Below are positions 51,073 through 52,891 of a stretch of DNA of 64,000 nucleotides, piece after piece; positions within the stretch are counted from its first letter, which is position 1, and every line of letters begins with the position of its first letter. The stretch covers positions 1 to 64,000 of the forward strand of contig DASPKU010000015.1 in assembly GCA_035627955.1 (NCBI GenBank), in the 5' to 3' direction. Under the pieces are notes generated by a model, which was not told the origin of the DNA, did no database searches, and saw only the letters and a program-made list of their open reading frames with translations. This stretch comes from Phycisphaerales bacterium (GTDB taxonomy: Bacteria > Planctomycetota > Phycisphaerae > Phycisphaerales > UBA1924). Made by a program: the position numbers and the translations under genes.

Positions 51073-51750
51073 ATGTCCAAGGACCCCACCAACCCCTACG
51101 TCAGCCGCGGCGGCCTCAAACTCCGCCACGCCCTCGACGAGTTCAAAATCGACGTCACTGGCCTCACCTGCGCCGACCTGGGCGCCAGCACCGGCGGCTT
51201 CACCGACTGCCTCCTGCAAGCCGGTGCCGCCAAGGTCTACTCCGTCGATACCGCCTACGGCGAGTTCGCCTGGAAGCTCCGCAACGACCCGCGCGTCGTG
51301 CTGATGGAGCGCACCAACGCCCTGCACGCCGGGCCGCCGGCCGGTGGCGTCGACCTCGTCGTCGTGGACCTCGGCTGGACCCCCCAGCGGCTCCTCGTGC
51401 CCGCGGCATTGAAGTGGCTGCGCACCTTCCCGAGTGCCATGGCGACGTCTTCGTCGCTATGGAGAGACACTGGCGCTCCACCGCCCTCGCATAGCCACGA
51501 AGACGTGGCCATGGCACGAAAAGGCCGGATCATCTCCCTCATCAAACCCCACTACGAGGCCCCCGACCTCACCAAGGGCGCGCCCAAGGGCATCCTCACC
51601 GACGAGCAGTGTGAGTCGATCACGCAGCGCGTGGTCGCGGAACTGCCGTCGATGGGCGTGCGTGTTGCGGGCCTGACCCGGTCACCCGTCCTCGGCGGCA
51701 GCAAGGGCAAGGGCAACGCCGAGTGGCTGGTGGTGCTGGAGCCATCCTAA
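51073..51750 (+). CDS. TlyA/FtsJ-like rRNA methyltransferase with internal palindromic insertion
   Basis: 225 residues. NPYVSRGGLKLRHALDEF and the SAM-binding motif CADLGASTGGFTDCLLQAGA, then VDLVVVDLGWTPQRL and GRIISLIKPHYEAPD, match the methyltransferase domain of TlyA, which 2'-O-methylates rRNA. The N-terminal S4 RNA-binding domain of standard TlyA (about 60 residues) is absent. Between AALKWLR and GRIISLIKPHYE there are 33 extra residues encoded by an inverted repeat; relatives have about two residues there. The frame is kept, so the gene may still be active, with a loop added next to a core strand. Confidence 0.82.
   Translation: MSKDPTNPYVSRGGLKLRHALDEFKIDVTGLTCADLGASTGGFTDCLLQAGAAKVYSVDTAYGEFAWKLRNDPRVVLMERTNALHAGPPAGGVDLVVVDLGWTPQRLLVPAALKWLRTFPSAMATSSSLWRDTGAPPPSHSHEDVAMARKGRIISLIKPHYEAPDLTKGAPKGILTDEQCESITQRVVAELPSMGVRVAGLTRSPVLGGSKGKGNAEWLVVLEPS
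51434..51517. repeat. Palindromic insertion inside the tlyA-like gene
   Basis: The left arm at 51434-51461 (GTGCCATGGCGACGTCTTCG onward) and the right arm at 51490-51517 are reverse complements at 26 of 28 positions, around a 28-nt loop. The two mismatches sit at symmetrical places. The element lies in a coding region and keeps the reading frame. Confidence 0.88.
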
Positions 51751-51840
51751 AAAGCCGATCGCGCAAGCGATCGATCTTGATGTCTTTCTCGTCCTCTCAA
51801 CGAAACCAAGGCACTCGATCGCTCGCGCGATCGGCTCTTT
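51751..51840. repeat. Palindrome between the convergent tlyA-like and obg genes
   Basis: The left arm at 51751-51775 (AAAGCCGATCGCGCAAGCGA onward) and the right arm at 51813-51840 pair through AGCCGATCGCGC and AGCGATCGA, with a single central mismatch. Repeated GCGATCGC-like words occur within each arm. It fills the whole spacer and reaches the obg stop; it may serve as a two-way terminator or be a mobile repeat. Confidence 0.8.
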
Positions 51841-52891
51841 ACGTCGCCTTCGCCTCGCCCTCTTTCCACCCCTCGACCTTGAAGTCGCTCGGGTGGAGCA
51901 TCGCCCACAGCCGCTCCAGCAGGGGCTTGAGACCGTCGCGCGAGGCCGCGGAGATGATCATCACCTCGCGGTCGGGCCGCAGGTTCAGCTCCCGCGAGAC
52001 CTCCTTGAGCGCCTCCTCGGCCTCCTCGGGCAGCACCAGGTCCGCCTTGTTGAGCGCCACCAGCTCGGGCTTCTCGGAGAGCGCCTCGGAGTACTGCCGC
52101 AGCTCCTCGCGGATCAGCTTGTAGTTCTGCACCGGCGTGGTGCCGTCCAGCGGCGCCACGTCCAGAAGGTGCACGATCACCCGCGTCCGCTCGATGTGCC
52201 GCAGGAAGTCGTGCCCCAGCCCCGCGCCCTGCGAGGCGCCCTCGATCAGCCCGGGGATGTCCGCCAGCACGATGCGTCGCGTGGCGTCGATGGGCGCGAC
52301 GCCCAGCTGCGGCGAGAGGGTCGTGAACGGGTAGTTGGCGATCTTGGGTGTGGCCGCGGAGACCGCCGCCAGCAGCGTGCTCTTGCCGGCATTTGGCAGC
52401 CCCACGATCCCCACCTCGGCGATCAGCTTGAGCTCCAGCCGCAGCTTGAACTCCTGCCCCGGCTCGCCCGCGTCGGCGTGCTTGGGCGTCTGGTACGTTG
52501 AGGTCTTGAAGTGCTCGTTGCCCCAGCCGCCCTTGCCGCCCTTGGCGATGACCACCGAGTCGCCCGGCTTGAGGTCGTGCATCAGCTCGCCAGTCTCGGC
52601 GTTGAAAATCAGTGTGCCCGGGGGGAGCCGCATGACCAGGTCCGCGCCGTTCGCCCCCGTGCACTGCTTCCGCCCACCCGGCTCGCCGTCCTTGGCCGCC
52701 CACAGCTTCTGGTCGCGGAAGTCGTAAAGCGTGGACATGCCGGAGTCGGCCTGGATGACGACGTTGCCGCCGTCACCCCCGTTCCCGCCGTTGGGCCCAC
52801 CCTTGGCCTCGAACATCTCGCGGCGGAATGACACCGCCCCATTGCCCCCGGCACCAGCACGAACACGGATATTGGCTTGATCGACGAACAC
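51839..52891 (-). CDS. obg: Obg (CgtA) GTPase
   Basis: 350 residues. The glycine-rich Obg domain (1-158) opens FVDQANIRVRAGAGGNGAVS with GGPNGGNGGDGGNV. The G domain has P-loop GLPNAGKST near 165, G3 DIPGLIEGAS, G4 NKAD and G5 ISAAS. Obg binds the large ribosomal subunit and links growth to ribosome assembly and stress. There is no C-terminal Obg_C extension. It sits after the Tad pilus locus but is separated from it by a terminator hairpin. Confidence 0.97.
   Translation of the reverse strand: MFVDQANIRVRAGAGGNGAVSFRREMFEAKGGPNGGNGGDGGNVVIQADSGMSTLYDFRDQKLWAAKDGEPGGRKQCTGANGADLVMRLPPGTLIFNAETGELMHDLKPGDSVVIAKGGKGGWGNEHFKTSTYQTPKHADAGEPGQEFKLRLELKLIAEVGIVGLPNAGKSTLLAAVSAATPKIANYPFTTLSPQLGVAPIDATRRIVLADIPGLIEGASQGAGLGHDFLRHIERTRVIVHLLDVAPLDGTTPVQNYKLIREELRQYSEALSEKPELVALNKADLVLPEEAEEALKEVSRELNLRPDREVMIISAASRDGLKPLLERLWAMLHPSDFKVEGWKEGEAKAT

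Follow-up and report, generated by a model that had tools for sequence, protein, structure and literature searches.

A probable GTGC-tagged REP pair inserted in frame in a TlyA-like methyltransferase gene of a Phycisphaerales bacterium

In the 64,000 nucleotides of Phycisphaerales DNA analysed here (contig DASPKU010000015.1; hereafter the window), a gene for a TlyA-like rRNA 2'-O-methyltransferase (tly; 51073..51750, + strand; 225 aa) carries an insert which we consider, at a probability of about 0.83, to be a pair of GTGC-tagged repetitive extragenic palindromic sequences (REPs), placed in the loop that joins helix alpha-D to strand beta-5 in the encoded protein, most likely moved there by a REP-associated tyrosine transposase (RAYT) and tolerated in frame. 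The pair is REPIN-like, occupies 51434..51517 (no strand assigned) and is built of 28+28+28 = 84 nt, namely arm 1 (51434..51461, + strand), a 28-nt spacer (51462..51489, + strand) and arm 2, which is antisense (51490..51517, - strand). The repeat search returned arms of 28 nt each, complementary at 26 of 28 positions (93%) and 28 nt apart, just as an earlier note made from the letters of this DNA had described them, and the 33 residues which that note placed between AALKWLR and GRIISLIKPHYE are present in the translation of the ORF. Its outer limits of 51421-51520 do enclose a real palindrome, but the true bounds are narrower, 51434-51517.

Each arm also folds alone into a 10-bp hairpin that is closed by a TCTT loop and leaves the GTGC tag unpaired at its base, a feature that the earlier note had overlooked. 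Arm 1, which translates to (S)AMATSSSL(W), has the most frequent sequence of a dispersed repeat family, here called family A; arm 2 translates to HSHEDVAMA(R), and the only differences between the arms are at hairpin positions 11 and 22, which form a single compensated pair. The mismatches described previously as symmetrical are real, and they mirror one another because the two arms hold this pair in opposite orientations, G-C and C-G. The start of the spacer resembles the DNA found 3' of REPs elsewhere in the genome, at C23:39098 (91% over query 35-80) and at C6:264667 (95% over query 37-74), in a query numbering where base 35 is 51434 and arm 1 spans 35-62.

Folded as DNA, the segment 51421-51520 is far more stable than its shuffles (z = -7.9), as is 51434-51517 folded as RNA (z = -9.2; hairpin of -56.2 kcal/mol), with 0 of 200 shuffles as stable in either case. 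A measure based on perfect stems did not single the insert out (6 bp; 136 of 300 shuffles as good), because a G-T pair is present in its stems and a long distance separates its arms. A chance palindrome is ruled out by the folding results and by a reversed control pattern, for which 0 matches were found in the host's own genome.

That genome (G000; 23 contigs, 95.7% complete) gave 39 matches to the arm pattern at up to two mismatches, 36 belonging to family A and three to a sister family, B. Family A thus occupies 35 sites with no fewer than 36 arms. Of these, 22 are identical, and the 36 arms are on average 96% alike while their 40-nt flanks are only about 31% alike, so that the search for arm copies proposed earlier revealed a dispersed family with unrelated surroundings. 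Immediately upstream of the arms a bias is seen, with G at -2 in 34 of 36 and C at -1 in 29 of 36. At up to one mismatch the pattern was found in three of 120 genomes of the host's taxonomic family, its own included, and the two others carry GTGGCATGCCCACGTCTTCGTGGGCATG. An inverted pair within 180 nt, at up to four mismatches per arm, occurs at one of the 35 family-A sites, which makes the 84-nt unit atypical for the REPIN model; elsewhere, two opposed copies lie 287 nt apart (L003) and two pairs are direct (L008 and L063). At L049 and L056, degenerate tandem REP or tag pieces such as gcgtgccatggcgactcccgc precede REP copies.

The gene is widespread, tly being present in 36 of 40 relatives (37 of 41 with the host's own genome), and in none of these 36 did a match cross residues 123-145. 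In an alignment of 101 rows, consisting of the window protein and 100 distinct homologs from 109 loci, the stretch from W115 to K158 holds 42 residues in the window protein and 11 in 61 of the 101 rows, and the 84-nt pair supplies 28 of the roughly 31 net extra residues. Since 0 of the 100 distinct homologs carry the window insert or its 33 residues, an old protein feature spread throughout the order is rejected, and the element is better regarded, as was first proposed, as a preformed repeat that inserted in frame: its arms are dispersed in random flanks, homologs lack it, the frame is open and the catalytic residues are kept. At DNA level the close relatives offered no clean empty site, the best homologs being about 64–70% identical.

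The same loop is 6-17 residues longer in seven further rows (L028, L033, L102, L116, L118, L165 and L166). In two other planctomycetes it contains a poly-Gly expansion (L028) and VG repeats (L118), and the loop of L165 has a weak hairpin, equalled by 5 of 300 shuffles. It could be proposed that the repeat is no passenger and acts as a functional element in tly mRNA or DNA, either as an RNA hairpin exerting control or as a protein-binding site, for which the very stable RNA hairpin might speak; with none of the 100 distinct homologs having the repeat, and with the loop filled elsewhere by unrelated poly-Gly or VG repeats, we regard this as very improbable.

A complication is the tly gene of Phycisphaerales SJ192 (L090, genome G136), whose loop has 22 extra residues derived largely from another GTGCC hairpin (L090:1825-1905; GTGCCACCGACTTGC...GCAAGTCGGTG, with an 11-bp stem that none of 300 shuffles equalled). 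Further hairpins related to it are present in the SJ192 genome, weakly matched by BLAST (best E 0.008 beyond itself). In the tree, no row is closer to the window protein than L090, with support of 94/95, just below the program's threshold of 95. Its hairpin insert makes the ancestral state of the loop uncertain: the loop may already have been occupied before the window insert arrived, and both independent insertions and an old insertion later overwritten are possible. The latter reading, in which an ancestor shared with SJ192 gained a GTGCC hairpin in tly that was subsequently overwritten or replaced by different REP families, draws on the tree position and on the tag and loop held in common, and it would have to accommodate two hairpins that share little beyond the tag, that lie 16 and 21 nt from the conserved Trp codon in different reading frames, and that are linked by no intermediate among the 100 distinct homologs; we consider it unlikely.

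With regard to the protein itself, the ORF 51073-51750 stays open through the insert, Pfam PF01728 matches the product, and K16, D99, K158 and E217 do not vary in an alignment of 33 proteins. By motif, these four residues are equated with the catalytic K-D-K-E of Bacillus subtilis TlyA, given as K69, D155, K183 and E239 (PMC12805891). The AlphaFold model reached a pLDDT of 89.7 overall and of 54-69 in the blocks covering residues 121-150, which are preceded by helix 105-115 and followed by strand 152-157; all of the six top PDB matches of the model are TlyA or TlyA-type 'putative hemolysin' entries, 3hp7 and 3opn among them. The modelling advised in the earlier note returned a TlyA-type fold with an addition of low model confidence. 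The name TlyA-like, also given there, is favoured by the FtsJ fold, the K-D-K-E residues and the match to 3hp7/3opn, but the protein stays below the cut-offs of both NCBIfam TlyA models (TIGR00478, 127.1 versus 185.8 bits; NF049952, 81.8 versus 250 bits), and an N-terminal S4 domain was not matched in a profile search. It thus resembles the TlyA 16S/23S rRNA 2'-O-methyltransferases (3hp7, 3opn, 5kyg, 7s0s) in its fold and K-D-K-E positions, and differs from them in the unmatched S4 domain, in the 31 extra residues between alpha-D and beta-5 and in its sub-threshold scores.

The loop between alpha-D and beta-5 is probably located at the protein surface and, given the Rossmann-type fold, presumably faces away from the SAM pocket. 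Together with the length variation of this loop among relatives, the open frame and an element length of 84 nt, a multiple of three, such a location would account for the survival of the copy. We infer that the protein with the insert is made and active and that the added loop is itself functionless. An assembly artefact, by which a repeat was joined into tly, is extremely improbable: repeats may mislead assembly, and this one comprises 23 contigs, but the genome contains a single tly match, whose two parts each occur once and lie collinear and in frame on a contig of 293 kb.

A second repeat lies close by. An inverted REP-like pair of a family unrelated to the tly insert (family C, GAGCCGATCGCGCGAGCGATCGA; 51748..51841, no strand assigned) overlaps the tly stop codon and is situated between tly and a convergent ORF (52891..51839), which we take to be an Obg-like GTPase. 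Family C is likewise dispersed, with 106 BLAST matches in the genome when both strands and overlaps are counted and several pairs among them; at least about 39 sites were listed from the 40 of 56 candidates that were scored, and the scan for intragenic family-C copies covered the listed sites other than C8:90161, C3:54253, C2:137838 and C19:82240.

Copies of family A inside other genes are few. Six of the 35 sites look intragenic. Of the window, 84.5% lies in long ORFs selected by codon score, and a share of six in 35 implies strong avoidance of genes by the family. Coding calls were made with our own codon score and no gene finder; ten single copies were examined closely, and the remaining arms were judged by the codon scores of their flanks only. 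Five of the ten were kept as intragenic (L003, L007, L052, L054 and L061), and five were set aside as gene-edge copies or copies in unconvincing frames (L005, L050, L059, L066 and L067). In a NifS/IscS-like cysteine desulfurase, a single in-frame copy encodes HSDEDVAMAR, a stretch that two aligned relatives and PDB IscS 1p3w lack; a paralog that is 43% identical is present in the same genome. Judged by such alignments, there is a strong case that both tly and the cysteine desulfurase received intragenic insertions. Insertion is probable in a PabB-like gene, where two of the three relatives aligned have a shorter version of the stretch containing AMTTSSSLW and the codon score just upstream is negative. 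Weaker candidates are a YkgJ-like gene (L003), in which the REP falls within a PF03692 match and the loops of aligned relatives are only four or zero residues shorter, and the genes for an alpha/beta hydrolase (L007) and an O-antigen ligase-like protein (L061), in which an open frame and the codon score would suggest insertion and the Pfam match lies to one side only. Since 28 nt is not a multiple of three, lone REPs can be in frame only if extra bases were inserted or lost. The six sites use two of five open frames (P about 0.04), which is too weak for a claim of frame preference. The intragenic candidates of families B and C proved to be gene edges or unverified ORFs (L173, L183, L184, L190, L192, L199, L201, L202, L209, L218 and L225).

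The main indication of how such elements move comes from family B (GTGCCACGATCACGTCTTCGTGATCGTG), for which a 71-nt query gave 36 matches, itself included, and ungapped matches were obtained in 22 of 29 loci scanned. Families A and B share the GTGCC tag, the apex ACGTCTTCGT and the 28-nt size, and their inner stems differ with pairing kept; the GTGC tag is found in both families save for single variants, and is unpaired in one folded family-B copy. A family-B REP stands on both sides of a gene for a 198-aa protein (L014:1444-2040) which scores above the NCBIfam cut-off for REP-associated tyrosine transposases (NF047646, 104.2 versus 80 bits). Judged by sequence, its EHVH and CREVRYIHENPVERGLV are a predicted HUH motif and catalytic tyrosine, and they resemble the HuH and YI..NP motifs tabled for RAYTs (PMC6006769).

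Conservation of pairing was assessed with five measures on 22 self-chosen variants of families A and B and one from genome G056. Pairing was seen in 95.9% of hairpin cells, a share that fell to 83.0% in shuffles and did not exceed 57.3% after sliding, and 39 cells were changed on both sides versus 16.1 in shuffles, counts in which each change is included many times because the rows represent few lineages. Pairs changed on both sides were no more frequent than expected (5 versus 4.7, with 366 of 500 shuffles as high), nor were further pair types (9 versus 10.6).

The 10 Y1_Tnp loci of the host genome, scanned with flanks of about 1.5 kb, included none with family-A REPs on its flanks, and hence no RAYT of family A's own was found among them; a transposase bracketed by its own REP family is seen for B. 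One Y1_Tnp gene has the hairpin GCATGGCCGCGACTGAGCGGCCATAC on both sides (L015:1226 and 1808; G000:C17) and is a further candidate REP/RAYT pair. In the SJ192 genome, the closest match to the L014 protein (53% identical; L248:1501-2082) is bracketed by GTGCCACCGATGTC and GTGCCACCGAAGTC hairpins, and another RAYT-like locus, whose coding sequence is divided between two frames, has GTGCCACGGCTTG and GTGCAACGGCTTG hairpins on either side, the hairpins at both loci being GTGC-tagged; the first of these genes has an in-frame TGA near the C-terminus. REPs with the same tag around RAYT or RAYT-like loci in both genomes indicate a GTGC-tagged RAYT/REP system in these Phycisphaerales, a conclusion we regard as well supported.

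It is from this system that family A would have obtained its mobility: a RAYT, an HUH tyrosine transposase acting on single-stranded DNA, would recognise the tag and hairpin and move the element, one copy would integrate into the alpha-D/beta-5 loop of tly, and being in frame it would survive in a loop of variable length that is probably at the surface. Family A may instead have moved otherwise, for instance through slippage, through gene conversion among the hairpins or by means of an IS or RAYT since lost, with the L014 transposase serving family B only, as could be argued from the missing family-A-flanked RAYT among the loci scanned and from tandem remnants such as gcgtgccatggcgactcccgc adjoining some copies. 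We consider this rather doubtful, given that A and B have tag, apex and size in common and that unrelated flanks favour insertion over slippage.

Compared with known systems, the RAYT-mobilised REP pair proposed here has several counterparts. Like the GTAG-tagged REPs, REPINs and RAYTs of Pseudomonas and E. coli, the repeats have a 5' tag and a hairpin, are dispersed and, when paired in inverted orientation, form a long hairpin; as in REP/RAYT systems, a RAYT is flanked by REPs with the same tag, here of the sister family B. They are dispersed hairpins within 20-40 nt, with an unpaired 5' tetranucleotide, and are mainly extragenic, as REPs are, and they lack the GTAG or GTGG tag and are not mostly inverted doublets (family C has several pairs). 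RAYT classes with a GT[AG]G guide have been described, including a planctomycete-rich class with atypical structures (PMC6006769), and in contrast to these GT[AG]G-tagged REPs the tag here is GTGC. REPINs are REP doublets, and singlets have been regarded as decayed remnants (PMC3116915); family A, unlike REPINs, consists almost entirely of singlets which are nevertheless 96% alike.

The earlier note was right that intragenic repeats are known in Rickettsia, but they were already known outside it too: REP insertions inside genes, with pairs adding 20-30 residues, are described for Opitutus terrae, R. conorii, Thioalkalivibrio and others, and the planctomycete R. baltica has several REP families and many tyrosine transposases with flanking repeats (PMC3733652). 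The main text of that paper contains no word starting with GTGC, and a search of open-licence PMC text for Phycisphaer- names together with repetitive extragenic palindromic sequences gave no match. The in-frame intragenic copies resemble those of O. terrae and Thioalkalivibrio, in which 20-30 residues are added, and also the Rickettsia RPE, palindromes inserted in frame in unrelated genes where they add residues. From the RPE (CGTC in R. conorii) they are set apart by their GTGC tag; moreover, no transposase dedicated to the CGTC repeats is reported, whereas in the present genome the sister family B flanks a RAYT.

In conclusion, what is new here relative to known REPs is the GTGC tag, the near-identical singlets and a planctomycete host in which a RAYT is present. 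It is also possible, though we put it forward only tentatively, that a Phycisphaerales lineage of GTGC-tagged REPs and RAYTs moves single 28-nt REPs and recurrently seeds protein loops, the tly loop having been hit independently by two GTGCC families in sister genomes, and HSDEDVAMAR and AMATSSSLW appearing in several enzymes. If true, this would be a planctomycete counterpart of the Rickettsia RPE with the transposase still present. The RAYT guide tag may extend from GT[AG]G to GTGC, and a planctomycete joins the lineages whose REP insertions turn into protein segments; with a candidate transposase whose flanks bear the same tag, these bacteria could allow a test of how a mobile hairpin becomes part of a protein loop.
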